Below are positions 11,567 through 22,655 of a stretch of DNA of 58,379 nucleotides, piece by piece. The stretch spans positions 1 through 58,379 of the forward strand of contig CABZCN010000008.1 in assembly GCA_902524245.1 (NCBI GenBank). Reading direction: 5' to 3'. The notes under the pieces were generated by a model. That model was not told the origin of the DNA, ran no database searches, and was given only the letters and a program-made list of their open reading frames with translations. Numbering within the stretch: position 1 is the first letter of the stretch; each line of letters opens with the position of its first letter. Source of the stretch: an uncultured Alphaproteobacteria bacterium (GTDB lineage Bacteria; Pseudomonadota; Alphaproteobacteria; HIMB59). Both the position numbers and the translations under genes were made by a program.

Positions 11567-12381
11567 ATTACTCATTAACAATCAAGATTATCTTAATATT
11601 ACTATTTATATACCTTTTAATTATTTTTTATGTTTATACAAAACAAAGATCTCTTCTTTATGTTCCTCAAATTGATAATTATGATGATGAATTACTAATC
11701 ATTCCTGCGGAACAAGTATTTATTGAAAATAGCTCAAATATAAAATTAAGGTCAATTTTTTATAAACATCCATCTAATACTAAAACTACATTACTGATGT
11801 TTCATGGTAATGCTGGTCCTATTGAAAATAGATTTTATAAAATTAACAAGTTATCAAAATATGACCAAAACATTTTACTTATTTCTTGGAGATCATATAG
11901 CGGTAATGATGGTGAACCTACTGAGGATGGTTTATATGATGACGCTAAAAGTGCTATAAAATGGCTTGAAGAAAAAGATATTTTTAAAAAGGACATCATT
12001 ATTTATGGAGAATCTTTAGGAACTGCTGTGAGCATAGAAATAGCTCAGAATAATAATTTTAAGGGTCTAATCCTGGAGGCGCCATTTACTTCAATGATTG
12101 ATGCAGCTAAATTTCATTATCCATACCTTCCTGTTTCAATCATGCTTAAAGATAAGTATTTAAGTGATAAAAAGATTAAAAACGTTATTTCTCCAATATT
12201 TATTATGCACGCCACAGGCGATGATATTGTTCCGTTTAGAATGGGTGAAAAAATGTACGAATTAGCAAATTCACCAAAAAGTAGCTATTTCATTGATGAG
12301 AATGAACATTTAGTAACATATGATGAAAATTTAATGAATAAAATGGACGAGTTTTATGAAACTATAATTAATGATGAATAA
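11563..12381 (+). CDS. Membrane-anchored alpha/beta hydrolase
   Basis: 272 residues similar to the BEM46/ABHD13-type serine hydrolases. An N-terminal membrane helix (about 7-26) is followed by the oxyanion segment LLMFHGNAGP, nucleophile S151 in YGESLGTA, acid D220 or D221 in HATGDDIVP and H249 in DENEHL. The substrate is unknown; an esterase or thioesterase acting at the membrane is plausible. It is coupled by overlap to the GFA gene and to the acyl-CoA synthetase gene downstream (11 bases), which hints at lipid metabolism. Confidence 0.82.
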   Translation: MNYSLTIKIILILLFIYLLIIFYVYTKQRSLLYVPQIDNYDDELLIIPAEQVFIENSSNIKLRSIFYKHPSNTKTTLLMFHGNAGPIENRFYKINKLSKYDQNILLISWRSYSGNDGEPTEDGLYDDAKSAIKWLEEKDIFKKDIIIYGESLGTAVSIEIAQNNNFKGLILEAPFTSMIDAAKFHYPYLPVSIMLKDKYLSDKKIKNVISPIFIMHATGDDIVPFRMGEKMYELANSPKSSYFIDENEHLVTYDENLMNKMDEFYETIINDE

Positions 12382-16402: not shown

Positions 16403-16642
16403 ATGTATTACGATGATGATAATAATGACGATAATACGCTGTTAGGCAGACTTACTGAGCTAAATAGATCCCTAAGTCAAATGATGAGAAACACCAGCGA
16501 AAGAAATATTGTTGAAAAGTTACATACTTACCAACTTGCTATAAAAAAAACTCTAAAAATTATGACTAAAAAACAGCTTAGTACTATTTCCGAGTCCTCC
16601 AATGAATACGAAGATAGATTAGAACGAGGTGACTTTGACTAA
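16403..16642 (+). CDS. Small acidic hypothetical protein
   Basis: 79 residues, not recognised. The N-terminus is very rich in Asp and Asn (YYDDDNNDDN), the centre is a predicted amphipathic helix with alternating charges, and the tail is acidic. It has no signal peptide or membrane segment. It lies alone between the small membrane ORF and the convergent ribA gene (4-base gap). Confidence 0.5.
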   Translation: MYYDDDNNDDNTLLGRLTELNRSLSQMMRNTSERNIVEKLHTYQLAIKKTLKIMTKKQLSTISESSNEYEDRLERGDFD

Positions 16643-16646
16643 ATTT

Positions 16647-17765
16647 TTAGTCTAAATTTTTAAAACCGTAACCTGCTTTTTTTACTCTTGTTTTAAAATA
16701 ATTCTTATTAAATTTATTAATTGTAGGTTTTGTATTAATTTGTTTAGCAATTTTAATGCCAGCTTTTTTAAGAGAAGAAACCTTTGTAAAATTATTTGTG
16801 ATAATATTGACTTTATTTACTTTTAATAACTTAAGTATCTTAGCAGCAATATTAAAATCTCTTTCATCATCTAAAAAACCTATGTTGTGATCAGCATCAA
16901 TAGTATCTAAGCCTTTTGACTGAAGAGAATAGGCCCTCATTTTATTTGCTAGTCCTATACCTCTCCCTTCTTGATCTAAATAAAGGATAATACCTCCTTT
17001 ATTTTTAACCATATAGTTTAAAGAGTTATTTAATTGTTCTCCGCAATCGCATTTTCTAGAGTGAAATATATCCCCAGTAAAACAAGCTGAGTGAATTCTA
17101 AGGTTTGTTGGTTGTTTTAAATTTTTTGGTTTAATTATGATCGCAATATGTCTTCTAGCACCAATATATGACTTAAAAATATTAAAAGTAGTAGATGCAA
17201 CATTTGGTAAGGGCACATTTGCACTTGAAACTAATCTGATGCTATTAGTTATAAATTTATTCTGATTTTTTAACTCTTTATGGTTAAATCTTAATAGACC
17301 AAGTTGTAATATTAGATTATCAATATTTTTATAGTATTTAGAATTAATTTTTTTAAATACAAGTGATGGTATTACCTTCGCATTTTTGGCTATATCTAAA
17401 CAGACATTATGGAAGTCTTTACTTTTGATATAAGGCTCATCTTTAAATAATATTTTATTTTGATCAGATAAAGGGTTAATGAATAAACTTAATAAAGATT
17501 TGTTTGATATTTTTTCATTTATTTTTAAATAAATATTTGTTGATACTTTATTCTCAAATATTGATTTTGCTTTTTGTTTTGTGATTAAAAGATATTTGTC
17601 TTTTTGTAGATATTGATTGAATTGATTTAAAATTTTATTGTCCGAATGTTCAATATTAAAGAACATCCAATAATTTTTATTTTCTTTGATAACTATTGGT
17701 CTTCCGGTTCTAAGCTCATTGATAGCTCTATCAATAAATGTGCCAAAATTTGATTTTAAACTCAT
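16647..17765 (-). CDS. ribA: GTP cyclohydrolase II with degenerate RibB-like N-terminus
   Basis: Converts GTP to 2,5-diamino-6-ribosylamino-pyrimidinone 5'-phosphate plus formate and pyrophosphate, the first step of riboflavin synthesis. The C-terminal half (about 195-372) is complete: zinc cysteines in CFTGDIFHSRKCDCG, DQEGRGIGL, the RAYSLQ tyrosine and TNNFTKV. The N-terminal half begins AINELRTGRPIVI, like a DHBP synthase fold, but lacks the acidic metal-binding and histidine motifs of RibB, so it is probably not a second enzyme; this architecture is seen in other alphaproteobacterial RibA proteins. It diverges from the RibD-like gene across 41 bases. Confidence 0.88.
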   Translation of the reverse strand: MSLKSNFGTFIDRAINELRTGRPIVIKENKNYWMFFNIEHSDNKILNQFNQYLQKDKYLLITKQKAKSIFENKVSTNIYLKINEKISNKSLLSLFINPLSDQNKILFKDEPYIKSKDFHNVCLDIAKNAKVIPSLVFKKINSKYYKNIDNLILQLGLLRFNHKELKNQNKFITNSIRLVSSANVPLPNVASTTFNIFKSYIGARRHIAIIIKPKNLKQPTNLRIHSACFTGDIFHSRKCDCGEQLNNSLNYMVKNKGGIILYLDQEGRGIGLANKMRAYSLQSKGLDTIDADHNIGFLDDERDFNIAAKILKLLKVNKVNIITNNFTKVSSLKKAGIKIAKQINTKPTINKFNKNYFKTRVKKAGYGFKNLD

Positions 17766-17806
17766 AGACTATATATATACTCAATAGCACTTGATACAGA
17801 TGAAAA

Positions 17807-18637
17807 ATGATAACAAAGCATAATATTTCTTCACTATTTGAATTTGTAAAAAAACAAAAAAAATCAAATATCTTAAGAATTGATTTAATTAACAAATCGT
17901 TTGTACTTAGTCAACATTCTAAAACCAATCATATTTTAATTGATAAAAATGGCGTTAATTTTAATTGTAAGATTGAAAAAAAAATAAATGAAATAGCACA
18001 AATTTTGTTACCAATATTGATGATAAAAAAAAAATTCTATATCGGTCAAATTGGGCAAAGCTTAGACGGTAAAATTGCACTTTTAAACGGCAATTCTCAT
18101 TACATTAATGATAAAAATAGTATTTCATACCTTCATAGTCTTCGTTCAGTGTGTGATGCAGTTATAGTTGGTGTAAATACAATAAAAAAAGATAATCCCT
18201 TGCTCACTACAAGAGCAATTAAGGGCTCAAATCCTCAGAGGATAATTATAGATCCGTCTCTAAAATTAACAAATAACTATCAAATATTTAAAGATGGTTT
18301 TTCAAATATCATATTTACACACTCTAATATTAAAAAGAATTTAAAAAATACACAAATTTATAAATTACCTGAAAGAAACTTCACAAATCTTATACACAAA
18401 CATATAAATAATTTAGGTTTTAAGTTCGTATTAGTAGAAGGTGGTTCTAAAACTATATCTAAATTTCTTGAGAATAAATTATTAGATATTATGCAATTTA
18501 TAATAGCACCTACAATAATTGGTTCTGGTATTAATTCTATAAATATAAAACCTATAACAAATTTAAAAAAAGTAATTAGAACAAAAAATAAAATTTATAA
18601 ATTTGGTGAAGAAATAATAGTAAGTTTAGAGTTTTAA
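17807..18637 (+). CDS. RibD C-terminal-type pyrimidine reductase (no deaminase domain)
   Basis: 276 residues. The reductase domain starts near residue 78 with YIGQIGQSLDGKIA, continues with CDAVIVGVNTIKKDNPLLTTR and PQRIIIDPSL, and ends with VLVEGGSKT and IAPTIIGSG, the NADPH-dependent RibD/ArfC fold. The N-terminal 75 residues do not match the RibD deaminase: no HAE or PCxxxGRTPPC zinc motif is present. It could reduce the ribosyl side chain of the RibA product directly, as in archaea and fungi, or a related pyrimidine. It diverges from ribA and converges on the methyltransferase with a 12-base overlap. Confidence 0.82.
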   Translation: MITKHNISSLFEFVKKQKKSNILRIDLINKSFVLSQHSKTNHILIDKNGVNFNCKIEKKINEIAQILLPILMIKKKFYIGQIGQSLDGKIALLNGNSHYINDKNSISYLHSLRSVCDAVIVGVNTIKKDNPLLTTRAIKGSNPQRIIIDPSLKLTNNYQIFKDGFSNIIFTHSNIKKNLKNTQIYKLPERNFTNLIHKHINNLGFKFVLVEGGSKTISKFLENKLLDIMQFIIAPTIIGSGINSINIKPITNLKKVIRTKNKIYKFGEEIIVSLEF

Positions 18638-19414
18638 AGCTAAAAAATCTTTATTTCTTAGAAATAATTTTGATTTATTTTTTTTAACATTTTCCCTTCT
18701 AAAATCTAACCATCTATCTAATGATATCTTATTTTTTTCAAGTACATTTTCACAAAAATCTAAAAACATATTTTGAAATTTTTTATTCTTTGATACATTC
18801 CAACTCGAGTCAAAAACAAATGTTTTATGTGACTTAGAAAACAATTTATTAATTATTTGACTACAGTTTTTACCAACTGCTTTTTGCCCAATACCTTTAT
18901 CTGACTCCTGATCTTTATTAAATAAACTTAAAACGTATTGGTCATTTTTATGTTTTGGTAAAAATTTAAAAAATCCATCATAATTAATTGAAAAATATAT
19001 AACTTTTGTATTTAGATTTTGTTTTTTAAATTCTAAATACCAATTTTTTGGCATTATATCTAAATACGCAGATCCTGTAATAATATCGTATTTTTCGAAT
19101 TTAAAACTTTTTATATTTTTGATTAAATCAAATTTTTTATAATTTATATTTATAATCTTATTCTTATTATTTGTTTTTTTCTTAAATTCTTTAATTGACT
19201 CAAATGATATGTCTATCATATCCCATGATTGTCTTTTTTTAAGTTTGGGGTACAAATATCTATAGTTGGAACCTGTTCCACAACCTAAATCAGCAATAGA
19301 CAATGTTTTGTAGTCTTGAAAATATTTATTAATTTTTTCTATAATTTTTTTATTTCTTGAAACTTTATCAATTTTCTCTCGAAGAAATAGCCAATCATTA
19401 TTAAATTTATGCAT
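18626..19414 (-). CDS. SAM-dependent class I methyltransferase
   Basis: 262 residues. SAM motif I is SIADLGCGTGSNYRYL around residues 39-54, and an acidic motif II follows (WDMIDISFESI). The target is unknown. It overlaps the upstream glycosyltransferase gene by 8 bases and is the last gene of the four-gene unit starting at the MDR dehydrogenase, so its substrate is likely an intermediate of that pathway. Confidence 0.8.
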   Translation of the reverse strand: MHKFNNDWLFLREKIDKVSRNKKIIEKINKYFQDYKTLSIADLGCGTGSNYRYLYPKLKKRQSWDMIDISFESIKEFKKKTNNKNKIININYKKFDLIKNIKSFKFEKYDIITGSAYLDIMPKNWYLEFKKQNLNTKVIYFSINYDGFFKFLPKHKNDQYVLSLFNKDQESDKGIGQKAVGKNCSQIINKLFSKSHKTFVFDSSWNVSKNKKFQNMFLDFCENVLEKNKISLDRWLDFRRENVKKNKSKLFLRNKDFLALKL

Positions 19415-20450
19415 TTTTTATTATCTTGATAAAAAGATCCCCAGATTGTGTTGGTGTTAAAAATTTTCTCTTATTTTGTGTTAATTTTTTTGATAAATCT
19501 GAATTAAATGCATTTTTAGTAATTAATTTTGATAAACTTTTTTCTTTAAAATTATTTAAGTAGATAATTCCATCCTTTTTTAGAGTACTCATAATTGTTT
19601 TAGTTTTATATGTAATAATCATTTTTTTGAGTTGAAGGGCATTAGCAAGTGACATACCAAAACCTTCATATTTACTTACTGAGACATAGAAGTCACACTT
19701 AGAATATAGTTTTGATAGTAAATTAGTCGATACATTACTATGAAACTTAACTTTTTTACTTAATCTATAATTACTTATAATTTTTAGTAATCTATTATAG
19801 TATTTACTCTCTCTAGTTATATCTCCTACAATATTTAATTTTATTTTATCCATGTATCTTAATTCGTTTAACAGATAATGATAATTTTTTCTCTCAATAA
19901 TACTTCCCACAGATAGTAAATTTATATTTTTATCCCTTTTATATTTATATTTTCTTAATTTTTCTATTCCAGGCTCTACAACTTGAATTTTACGCTTATT
20001 AATTTTAAATTTTTCAAAAATTAGTTGTTTTGTATCATTTGAAGTGACAATTATTTTTTTCGTTTTCTTATATAATTTTTTAGCGTTCTTAAGAAAAAAT
20101 TGACTTTGATTACCATTAAATTCTAGATAAAGAGGGTGGTGTATAAGAGCTATTACTACAAATCTATCTAGATAGTTTATTATACTATCAATACACTCAA
20201 AAACTAATCCATCAAAAATTAGTACCGCATTATCAGGTAATTTTTCTAAAGTTTTTTTTAGATTTTTTAAGTCATTTTCTTTAGGAAAGGGAAAGCTGTT
20301 AGCAAGTTTGATAGCATTTAAATTGAATTTAATTTTTTTTGCTCTTTTTAATATATTTTTTTCATAAATGTAACCACCTGTTTTTGTATTAATATCACCC
20401 GGATAAATAAAATAATAAGATTTATTGTGTATTACTGATCTCTTGTTCAT
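19407..20450 (-). CDS. Family 4-like glycosyltransferase
   Basis: 347 residues of GT-B fold. The C-terminal donor-binding domain has LLSVGSIIERKNYHYLL, KVKFHSNVS and the retaining-GT signature YEGFGMSLANAL (E-x7-E type region). The N-terminus has TGGYIYEKNIL, the acceptor-side glycine motif. Soluble, no membrane helices. The start overlaps the PTPS-like gene by 29 bases, an unusually long same-strand overlap, but there is no later methionine that would keep the N-terminal strand. Placed among GTP-derived pyrimidine/pterin genes, a small-molecule acceptor is more likely than a polysaccharide; this is inference. Confidence 0.8.
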   Translation of the reverse strand: MNKRSVIHNKSYYFIYPGDINTKTGGYIYEKNILKRAKKIKFNLNAIKLANSFPFPKENDLKNLKKTLEKLPDNAVLIFDGLVFECIDSIINYLDRFVVIALIHHPLYLEFNGNQSQFFLKNAKKLYKKTKKIIVTSNDTKQLIFEKFKINKRKIQVVEPGIEKLRKYKYKRDKNINLLSVGSIIERKNYHYLLNELRYMDKIKLNIVGDITRESKYYNRLLKIISNYRLSKKVKFHSNVSTNLLSKLYSKCDFYVSVSKYEGFGMSLANALQLKKMIITYKTKTIMSTLKKDGIIYLNNFKEKSLSKLITKNAFNSDLSKKLTQNKRKFLTPTQSGDLFIKIIKNA

Positions 20451-20829
20451 AAGAAGCCCAAGCTACATTTGACTCAGTTAAAATAATTTTAATTTTATGC
20501 AACTTGTTAAAATCTTCTATGTAATCTTTTTGTAATTTATCGCATATTCTGTCAAAAATATCTTTAGCAAGAAATTCCGTAGAGGTAATAATATTTTTAA
20601 ATTCTTCAACTTCGTCTAAATTTTTATAACTATAAAATTTTAATACGTCAGAGAGAATTTCTGTTACAACCCCGAGATCCATAATAATGTTATATTTGTT
20701 AATCTCTTTTGCATAAAACTCTGCATCAACTATGTAGGTCGCTCCATGCATATTCTGTGCTGGTCCAAAAACCTCACCCGGGAGAGAATGTGCAATTAAA
20801 ATATTATTTCGAACAGTAATTGAATACAT
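20422..20829 (-). CDS. PTPS/QueD-fold protein with altered active site
   Basis: 135 residues resembling 6-pyruvoyl/6-carboxy-tetrahydropterin synthases. Visible: first zinc histidine H14 (IAHSLPGE), second H28 in NMHGATY, conserved D51 (MDLGVV) and E119 (LTESNVAWASYE). The catalytic cysteine position is A24, the third zinc histidine of the usual HGH is A30, and the LDH dyad region reads YSYKNLD. It therefore belongs to a divergent subfamily unlikely to perform the standard QueD or PTPS reaction. It is one base downstream of the MDR gene and overlaps the glycosyltransferase gene. Confidence 0.8.
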   Translation of the reverse strand: MYSITVRNNILIAHSLPGEVFGPAQNMHGATYIVDAEFYAKEINKYNIIMDLGVVTEILSDVLKFYSYKNLDEVEEFKNIITSTEFLAKDIFDRICDKLQKDYIEDFNKLHKIKIILTESNVAWASYEQEISNTQ

Positions 20830-20830
20830 T

Positions 20831-21793
20831 TTAATACTTTATAGCATGCATTATGCTTTCTGGATTATTTAATATTGAAATATAATCTTTCTCTAAGTCC
20901 TGAAAGTCACTTTCTGTGTTTATTAATTTAAGAAGCTGGTTATTAGATAAAGCATTAATTGCTAAATTCAATCTCTTTTTATAATCATATTTTTTTGATA
21001 AATACTTTGGAATATTTGAAACTTGAGAACCAATAATTTTTAATCTCTTTGAGTGAAAATTACCTCCTAAATTTATATGACCTTTTCTATTTCCATACCA
21101 ACTAGCCTCAATAAATTTTCCCTCTAAATTTAATTTTTTTAGTGATTGGTTTAATACATCATAATTAGATGTTGTATTAATTATAACATCTAAGTCTTTA
21201 ATTTTTTTAAAATTAATAAATTTTAGTCCTAAAATATTTGCAAATTTCTTCTTTTTAATATTTATGTCAGTAATAAAGACATTTTTAAATTTTAGTAATT
21301 TATAATAGTAGGCAGTCAAAATACCAACAGAGCCCATCCCTATTATCAATATTTTGTTATTTAATTTTGCTTGAGTATCCCAAAAGATATTAATAGCTGT
21401 TTCCATATTTGCTGTTAGTAAATATTTTCGAATATCACCATTACCTTTTAAAATATTCACATTATTTATATCAATCTTAAATAGTGACTGATGGGGGTAA
21501 AGGCAGAATGTATTTTTATTTAAATATTTTTTTGGGCCCTCAACTATTTTACCAACATTAATGTAACCGTATTTAATTGGAAAAGAAAAAGATCCCTCTT
21601 GAAAAGGAGATTTCATTATATCGAACTGATCTTTGCTAATATTACCAGATGCTACTAATCTCTCAGTGCCCTTACTAATTCCTGAATAAAGAGTTTTTAC
21701 AAGAACAGTTTTAGAATTTTTTTTATAGCTTAGTATTTTTTTCTTAATAATTGGTTTATTTTCATTCTTAAGCCATAGAGAATAAGTTTCCAT
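20831..21793 (-). CDS. MDR-superfamily (zinc-type alcohol) dehydrogenase
   Basis: About 320 residues starting at the METYS methionine (21793); a GTG-initiated extension to 21820 is possible but adds a hydrophobic stretch not expected in the family. The GroES-like half has TLYSGISKGTERLVASG and PIKYGYINVG; the Rossmann half has ILIIGMGSVGILTAYYY. The usual catalytic zinc cysteine is replaced (SGISKGTE), as in other non-classical MDR members. The C-terminus ends HAIKY. It is the first gene of the MDR-PTPS-GT-methyltransferase unit and diverges from the creatininase gene by 29 bases. Presumably an NAD(P)-dependent redox step on the cluster intermediate. Confidence 0.8.
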   Translation of the reverse strand: METYSLWLKNENKPIIKKKILSYKKNSKTVLVKTLYSGISKGTERLVASGNISKDQFDIMKSPFQEGSFSFPIKYGYINVGKIVEGPKKYLNKNTFCLYPHQSLFKIDINNVNILKGNGDIRKYLLTANMETAINIFWDTQAKLNNKILIIGMGSVGILTAYYYKLLKFKNVFITDINIKKKKFANILGLKFINFKKIKDLDVIINTTSNYDVLNQSLKKLNLEGKFIEASWYGNRKGHINLGGNFHSKRLKIIGSQVSNIPKYLSKKYDYKKRLNLAINALSNNQLLKLINTESDFQDLEKDYISILNNPESIMHAIKY

Positions 21794-21822
21794 AATAATT
21801 ATATAAATGTTAAATATCACTT

Positions 21823-22581
21823 ATGCTATCAAAGTTTTGGTCCGATTTAACATCAGCAGACATTAGTAAATTAGGTAAAAATAAAATACTTATTCTCCCA
21901 TTTTCATCTGTAGAACAACATGGAGAACACCTTCCATCAGGTACTGATAAATTAATATTAGATGGAATTTTAAATACTTTTATTAAGAAATATCCCAAAC
22001 TTAATAAATATTTAATTCTACCAAATATCTCTATAGGTTCAGCGAGTGAGCATAATAGCTTTGAGGGCACTCTATCTTCGAACTCTACAAATTATATTGA
22101 TTATATTATCAGCATAGTTGGTGAGTTATGTATTCGTAGATATAAAAAATTTATCTTTTTAAATAGTCATGGCGGACAAATTAGTCACTTAGATATAGCT
22201 GCTAAAGAAATTAAAAGTAGATATAAAGCTGTCGATATTGTTAAGGCACATTATTTTCTATTTAAAGGTTTTGAAAAAATTATTCCAAAAAAAGAATTAC
22301 TTTATGGATATCATGGAGGTGAATTTGAAACATCAATAATGCTCCACCTTTATCCAGAGTTGATAAAATTAAATAAAATTAAAAGAAACAAACTCTCATC
22401 TGACTTTAAATCTAAAAAAATAATTTCTTATGAAAGAACAATTAAAAGAGCTTGGAATACAAAAGATTTGTCCAAGACAGGTATAATTGGCAATCCTACA
22501 AAATCCACTGCAGATAAAGGAAAAAGAATTCTAGATCTTACATCAAGAACCTTAAAAAAAATAATTGATGAAATGAAGTAG
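21823..22581 (+). CDS. Creatininase-family amidohydrolase
   Basis: 252-residue metal-dependent hydrolase. Ligand residues appear as E31 and H33 in SSVEQHGEHLP, D42 in GTDK, H116 in NSHGG and E167 in HGGEFETS. The family includes creatininase, the mycofactocin peptidase MftE and archaeal ArfB, a deformylase of a GTP-derived pyrimidine in riboflavin/F420 synthesis. The neighbouring GTP cyclohydrolase II and RibD-type reductase make an ArfB-like substrate the most attractive guess. The stop codon is immediately followed by the tRNA-Cys 3' end on the other strand. Confidence 0.85.
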   Translation: MLSKFWSDLTSADISKLGKNKILILPFSSVEQHGEHLPSGTDKLILDGILNTFIKKYPKLNKYLILPNISIGSASEHNSFEGTLSSNSTNYIDYIISIVGELCIRRYKKFIFLNSHGGQISHLDIAAKEIKSRYKAVDIVKAHYFLFKGFEKIIPKKELLYGYHGGEFETSIMLHLYPELIKLNKIKRNKLSSDFKSKKIISYERTIKRAWNTKDLSKTGIIGNPTKSTADKGKRILDLTSRTLKKIIDEMK

Positions 22582-22655
22582 TGGAGGCCCACCCCGGAAT
22601 CGAACCGAGCTACAAGGATTTGCAGTCCTCTGCATAACCAATCTGCCAGCGGGCC
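22582..22655 (-). tRNA. tRNA-Cys (GCA)
   Basis: 74-base cloverleaf on the minus strand with encoded CCA. The acceptor GGCCCGC pairs with GTGGGCC, including one G-T pair; the anticodon loop CTGCAAA gives GCA. It abuts the creatininase stop codon. Confidence 0.96.

Follow-up and report, generated by a model that had tools for sequence, protein, structure and literature searches.

In the 58,379 nt contig CABZCN010000008.1 of an uncultured alphaproteobacterium of the HIMB59 lineage (assembly GCA_902524245.1; this whole stretch is hereafter called the window), seven genes at positions 16647–22581 were found to belong to a recurrent gene cluster, and we consider it probable, with appreciable doubt, that they constitute a portable pathway leading from GTP to a methylated glycoside built on a 2-amino-4-oxo-pyrimidine or a pterin ring, the product predicted from sequence. 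What was observed directly is that the genes are conserved and occur together, in which order they stand, where they are fused, which residues are lost and where the island sits. A preliminary description of this DNA had proposed that a riboflavin-pathway intermediate is turned into a methylated glycoside; this proposal proved to be the best reading of the evidence, with the product itself standing as a prediction. Single members of the set are known, and what appears new is the cluster as a whole, a proposed secondary pathway that combines enzymes of riboflavin synthesis with a novel core. Such a pathway, common to small-genome marine bacteria and many actinomycetes and with no described product that we could find, represents a testable gap. 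Substrates for each enzyme are predicted by the gene set together with the fusions, the absence of a deaminase and the residues that a PTPS-like protein has lost.

Conservation and co-occurrence of the seven genes

The seven-gene cluster and the layout given in the preliminary description were verified by open reading frame (ORF) and Pfam analysis. On the minus strand, a BchC-like MDR dehydrogenase (20831–21793; its ORF is open from GTG 21820 and the likely start is ATG 21793), the PTPS-like protein (20422–20829; PF01242, 75 bits), a Glycos_transf_1 family glycosyltransferase (GT, 19407–20450; PF00534, 80.6 bits, Pfam gathering score 26.4) and a class I SAM methyltransferase (MT, 18626–19414; PF13649, 32 bits) follow one another in this order, read from MDR, with junctions formed by a 1-base gap and two overlaps. 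Converging on MT is the stand-alone reductase RibD_C (17807–18637, plus strand; PF01872, 102 bits), which diverges across 41 bases from RibA2 (16647–17765, minus strand; PF00925, 162 bits), a GTP cyclohydrolase II (GCHII) whose N-terminal part spans some 170 residues, while a creatininase-family hydrolase (CRE, 21823–22581, plus strand; PF02633, 181 bits) diverges from MDR. Six of the seven Pfam families scored above cut-off and MDR below it; RibA2 passed the cut-off of the NCBIfam RibA subfamily NF001591, and an NCBIfam cut-off was reached by none of PTPS-like, MDR, GT, MT, RibD_C and the creatininase.

Searching 190 alphaproteobacterial genomes with the window MDR and PTPS-like proteins (threshold 1e-10) found both in an identical set of 23 genomes, the own genome included, with none discordant and with neither protein in the remaining 167; the two genes adjoin in 22 of the 23 and lie on separate contigs in G035. 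The 22 other MDR-bearing genomes, represented by stretches of 9–16 kb picked through MDR, contained PTPS in 21 loci, GT in 21, MT in 20, RibD_C in 18, RibA2 in eight (one of which, in L047, fails to align across the zinc motif) and CRE in two, and with the window queries alone MDR, PTPS, GT, MT and RibD_C were all present in 16 of the 22. MT adjoins GT in 20 of these loci, and 4-base overlaps were found between PTPS and GT in 10/20 and between GT and MT in 11/20, with starts chosen by script. Among 20 control stretches of 16 kb, taken from 19 of the same genomes, six of the genes were found in none and CRE in one.

Beyond the class, a family profile of the PTPS-like protein collected at least 586 relatives among the 595 pattern matches listed in named genomes, and the best 80 loci contained MDR (75), GT (74), MT (71), RibA2 (55), CRE (55) and RibD_C (39); 16 of the 80 (L049–L064) share the genus or order of the window, and contig ends truncate some of the loci. 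The block turns up in Actinomycetota, Bacteroidota and Gemmatimonadota as well as in other Pseudomonadota, so that the conservation suggested earlier for other alphaproteobacteria was borne out and extends to four phyla; the contrary outcomes named with that suggestion, no co-occurrence outside this genome, or a ribA and reductase that are the sole riboflavin genes with the remaining five dispersed in relatives, did not occur. In an MDR tree of 61 rows (41 Actinomycetota, 16 Pseudomonadota, 2 Bacteroidota, 1 Gemmatimonadota and the window), the window protein sat on a long branch among Rhizobiales rows. On plasmids (PLSDB), nine of the 12 inspected matches, from a total of 20, show the block, two have a lone PTPS-like gene and one is a record without annotation; in the nine blocks a glycosyltransferase adjoins in eight, a RibD family protein is present in seven and a GTP cyclohydrolase II in four. 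Overall, MDR-PTPS-GT-MT is the core that stays the same from taxon to taxon, usually joined by RibD_C in the alphaproteobacteria, and RibA2 and CRE occur in part of the clusters. An account of the cluster as a unit was not found in the open-licence PubMed Central literature, a weak negative given that limited collection, and the passages available from PMC10308909 and PMC10308929 contain nothing on it.

Several genes of the set were also found fused. Among 112 loci scanned for single open frames as assembled, in which sequencing errors are possible, CRE is joined to RibD_C in L118 (544 residues, both domains found by Pfam), and GT to MT in L076, L092 and L118.

Residues of the enzymes and the proposed route

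The PTPS-like protein has lost residues characteristic of its family. In a profile alignment with human PTPS (1b66), Cys is replaced by Ala, HGH by HGA, and Asp-His by another residue plus Tyr. Residues were counted over 99 rows, from which 13 near-identical kin loci (L050–L052, L055–L064) and rows of unusual length had been excluded; 67 of the 99 were obtained by scanning with a pattern that itself takes in part of the counted stretch, and the 21 alphaproteobacterial rows, picked through MDR and not through the pattern, agree with the counts. The catalytic Cys of the K-C motif is absent, with Ala24 in 99/99 rows; of the zinc ligands, His14 and His28 are kept and the third His is replaced by Ala30, again in 99/99; and the Asp-His place is occupied by Ser in the window and often by Asn, followed in most rows by Tyr. 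Besides Ala24 and Ala30, the residues His28, Gly29, Thr31, Asp51, Asn70-Leu71-Asp72, Glu85 and Glu119 are invariant, and the FGPA..HGAT motif is present in all rows. With 40.7 bits the NCBIfam QueD model remained below its cut-off of 89.25. Judged by these residues, the protein is not a working PTPS or QueD, which refines the preliminary description. PTPS-I/II/III (QueD, biopterin, folate; COG0720) are members of the same Pfam family and sequence relatives in PDB, and differ in having the catalytic Cys, the zinc His and the Asp-His pair that are replaced here. Annotators of the plasmid blocks called MDR a zinc-binding alcohol dehydrogenase or dehydrogenase, and the PTPS-like protein a 6-carboxytetrahydropterin synthase or 6-pyruvoyl tetrahydropterin synthase; for this subfamily the name 6-carboxytetrahydropterin synthase is probably wrong.

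The solved homologue of the same PTPS-like family is SCO6650 of Streptomyces coelicolor (PDB 3d7j, E 3e-59 by the family profile), which is named 'uncharacterized' there and is reportedly without zinc, triad and PTPS activity. To our knowledge, SCO6650 and SCO6655 have been studied singly, and we know of no account of the multi-phylum cluster, its fusions or its marine version. As a side observation, PTPS-like genes of the same subfamily on two Streptomyces plasmids (L129 12001–12426; L135 10001–10399) lie in quite different annotated neighbourhoods, as far as the incomplete PLSDB annotation goes, and are perhaps paralogues without the pathway.

For MDR, the full fold was confirmed and was closest to polyol dehydrogenases in a VIA-align comparison of the model. 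H110 and H256 are present in 93/93 rows, and a Cys column common to all rows was not found (best 78/93 at position 324 and 66/93 at 106). The BchC model TIGR01202 gave 51.9 bits against a cut-off of 291.25. GT4-type glycosyltransferases carry an E-x7-E motif, of which the first Glu, E262, is present in 87/87 GT rows. The window GT (19407–20450) shares Asn at the place of the second Glu with its order kin L026, L049 and L054.

RibD_C has the RibD_C domain as its sole Pfam family, without an N-terminal deaminase domain, and matched 2hxv, 6p8c and 2azn in PDB. In CRE, E31, H33, D42 and H116 (45/45 rows) and E167 (42/45), which we take to be the creatininase metal ligands, are conserved, and the MftE model TIGR03964 scored 104.9 bits, below its cut-off of 172. 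The archaeal ArfB carries out the same reaction as BrbF, a creatininase-family protein of Sinorhizobium. According to passages of PMC9478397, BrbF had been annotated as creatinine amidohydrolase, deformylates the first riboflavin intermediate, acting right after GTP ring opening, and is without sequence similarity to ArfB. The likeness to the cluster lies in the creatininase family, with a creatininase fused to RibD_C in L118; the difference, in the same passages of PMC9478397, is that BrbF serves riboflavin and in rhizobia stands beside MarR and CobW genes.

A link between CRE (CREATININASE) and RibA2 was found at the RibA2 position corresponding to Tyr279. Counting all 68 cluster RibA2 rows, the window included, CRE is in the locus for 37/37 rows with Met (30), His (6) or Gln (1) at this place and for 17/30 rows with Tyr, one row being gapped (Fisher p 4.7e-6, with events that are not independent); 15 of these 17 Tyr rows come from relatives in the window's own genus or order. 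SCO6655 is said, from the work of Spoonamore in 2006, to be a GCHII that halts at the formylated product owing to a Met switch residue. The association supports, without proving, a deformylase role for CRE.

In the route that we propose, RibA2, with its intact residues, would open the GTP ring, and CRE may take off the formyl group or assist in its removal, the step that BrbF carries out on the way to riboflavin. RibD_C, by its domain content, would reduce the ribosyl chain to ribityl; because RibD_C is without a deaminase domain the 2-amino group would be kept, and the intermediate would therefore be pterin-like, not flavin-like. The PTPS-fold protein, with metal-site and triad residues lost and the glutamates invariant, may bind the ring and close or present it, and MDR would oxidise a hydroxyl, perhaps on the ribityl chain. 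GT would then add a sugar and MT would methylate, perhaps the sugar since GT and MT are fused in three genomes. Riboflavin-pathway enzymes also lead to a secondary product in the toxoflavin pathway, with the methyltransferase ToxA, the GCHII ToxB and the RibD-type ToxE, and the likeness, as that pathway is generally described, consists in riboflavin-pathway enzymes plus a methyltransferase; we know of no PTPS-like, MDR and glycosyltransferase core in it. Pterin glycosides such as cyanopterin and limipterin occur in bacteria and start from the GCHI route. More speculatively, and with considerable doubt, the product might be a hitherto undescribed, widespread GTP-derived 8-ribityl-pterin-like glycoside made through a PTPS-fold enzyme that has lost its metal site, redox- or light-active, soluble in water in the minimal marine form and anchored to lipid wherever CDP-alcohol phosphatidyltransferase and LPG_synthase_TM genes join; acquisition of the block would then have captured the first step of riboflavin synthesis in the HIMB59-type genus.

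RibA2, riboflavin supply and the insertion site

In RibA2, the zinc cysteines C228, C239 and C241 and the active-site Y279 are all kept. Its N-terminal part looks by eye like a worn DHBP synthase, but a Pfam match to that family was not obtained. A second riboflavin set, for which the preliminary description had advised a search elsewhere in the genome, was found as a separate ribD-ribE-ribBA-ribH operon on another contig, with its Pfam families confirmed. The operon RibD carries both deaminase and reductase domains, and RibBA (L048 7804–8877) has a DHBP synthase half of 265 bits and a weak GCHII half of 60 bits from which the zinc cysteines are gone; by bit score, this half is likewise degenerate in the other searched genus genomes having RibBA. 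RibA2 was thus the only intact GCHII found in the genome, which is 94.6% complete, so that a missed copy is conceivable.

A comparison of PF00925 matches within the genus, with twelve further genomes (11 of them <82% complete) left aside, found only RibA2 plus the degenerate RibBA in the eight cluster-bearing genomes G000, G193, G194, G197, G200, G203, G206 and G207, and a different intact GCHII, with a frame of 349–364 residues, in the cluster-free G030, G191, G202, G204 and G208. G212 has both RibA2 and the other intact GCHII, and G199 and G222 have RibA2 without a PTPS match, RibA2 lying close to the end of its contig in each; in the order's other family, cluster-bearing genomes also keep a second, short RibA. 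The intact ribA of G030 sits between two genes that in the window genome are 78 bases apart, without ribA. RibA2 is the only intact GCHII found, the RibBA zinc cysteines are lost and no ribA stands where G030 has one, which makes it probable that the cell relies on the island for riboflavin synthesis; for the first of these reasons RibA2 is probably not only a gene of the tailoring pathway. The island RibA2 seems, in this genus, to have taken over from the housekeeping GTP cyclohydrolase II and thereby to have bound riboflavin synthesis to the island, and the loss of the other ribA lends indirect support to a RibA2 that would convert GTP to the diaminopyrimidine. The suggested replacement of a housekeeping vitamin gene by an island gene would make the island hard to lose.

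The site of the island was defined by comparison with the cluster-free genus mate G030, a single contig of 1,410,127 bases, in which the flanking AMP ligase and exonuclease (both by eye), MFS and CMD genes are kept and CMD is followed by a 122-residue ORF without a Pfam match, tRNA-Cys, another ORF and a glutamine-synthetase-like gene (by eye). In the window, the cluster occupies the space between CMD and tRNA-Cys (22582–22655, minus strand, ARAGORN), which abuts the right edge of the island, while the order mate L026 carries the same seven genes in different surroundings with no window flank gene found. The tRNA-Cys gene looks like an insertion spot. In a search for an att pair, the 20 bases that begin the 3′ end of tRNA-Cys had no second copy in the window at up to three mismatches.

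At the tRNA-Cys site, G030 and G212 hold other ORFs. The corresponding tRNA-Cys coordinates are 11986–12059 and 13904–13977 in L211 and 8655–8728 in L209; G206 has two tRNA-Cys genes, of which the cluster-adjoining one differs in the 5′ half and has the same 3′ half. Directly before RibA2 lies a 79-residue ORF (16403–16642), to which a function was not assigned, that is present in G206 (97%), and its homologue was not found in L209, L210 or L026.

Alternative readings and accessory genes

The cluster could instead be an alternative riboflavin-supply module, in which flavin synthesis draws on RibA2, CRE and RibD_C, with the remaining four genes as bystanders. The status of RibA2 as the only intact GCHII found, the missing G030-type ribA and the existence in BrbF of a creatininase-family riboflavin enzyme (passages of PMC9478397) would all fit such a module. 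However, RibD_C would then duplicate the operon ribD, which already has deaminase and reductase domains; MDR, PTPS-like, GT and MT, the supposed bystanders, are the constant part across phyla, whereas RibA2 and CRE vary; and in 167 of the 190 class genomes neither MDR nor PTPS-like was found at 1e-10, which together make this explanation quite unlikely. A queuosine-like 7-deazapurine pathway built around a QueD paralogue is suggested by the PTPS family membership and by the annotators' 6-carboxytetrahydropterin synthase, but the QueD residues are absent, the QueD model is far from its cut-off, and the annotations of the nine plasmid blocks that were read mention neither queC nor queE nor folE (the PLSDB annotation is incomplete, and the window genome itself was not searched), so that we regard it as highly improbable.

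Accessory genes bear on a lipid or envelope-glycan pathway, in which the seven genes would make a pyrimidine or pterin head group for a membrane lipid. Among the best 80 loci, CDP-alcohol phosphatidyltransferase was found in 53 and LPG_synthase_TM in 49, compared with 0/20 controls for each, and in the 22 alpha loci they were found in 7 and 0, respectively; the controls, however, are all alphaproteobacterial and most of the positive loci actinobacterial. One frame in L121 joins the phosphatidyltransferase to a protein annotated as sulfatase (the seed had no Pfam match at 0.001), and another in L046 joins it to an FkbM methyltransferase. Neither lipid gene is among the seven here, and an extra PF01066 lipid gene was unsupported, with 2–3 copies in cluster-bearing genus genomes (n=7) vs 3–5 in cluster-free ones (n=3). 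A head-group pathway of this kind is unlikely for the cluster, and from the accessory-gene and PF01066 counts a lipid anchor for the product is possible elsewhere and not indicated in the window genome.

Several observations weigh against the favoured reading of the seven genes as a pathway to a methylated glycoside. RibA2 and CRE could serve riboflavin only. RibD_C is present in only 39/80 and RibA2 in 55/80 of the best loci, so that the first steps are possibly supplied elsewhere or not universal, and in four of the 80 (L073, L074, L095 and L116, of which L074 is a short contig) the PTPS-like gene stands without the other six. Most alphaproteobacterial clusters lack CRE, and no creatininase homologue at 1e-15 was found in five of the ten other cluster-bearing genomes searched; such homologues, which may include BrbF, occur in 22/115 other alphaproteobacterial genomes. 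Support for the link between CRE and the residue at position 279 comes from a single phylum, as the 37 rows without Tyr are all Actinomycetota by title, and the window RibA2 keeps Tyr yet has CRE. MDR resembles polyol dehydrogenases at the level of the fold, among rows that are nearly tied, and the second E-x7-E Glu of the window GT is N270, a position with Glu in 80, Asn in 4 and Asp in 3 of the 87 rows.

In several alpha- and gammaproteobacterial clusters, a cytochrome b561 gene adjoins RibD_C or MT (L131 15026–15565; L133 14528–15085; L136 13055–13582), which hints that the product may take part in redox reactions. Roseobacter-type clusters (L066, L067, L075, L081, L093, L130) contain inositol-monophosphatase-type and sometimes FkbM methyltransferase genes; L081 is titled Aquiluna, an actinobacterium, yet has this cluster form, and its bin may be mixed. 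In clusters of this type GT, when found, lies apart from PTPS.

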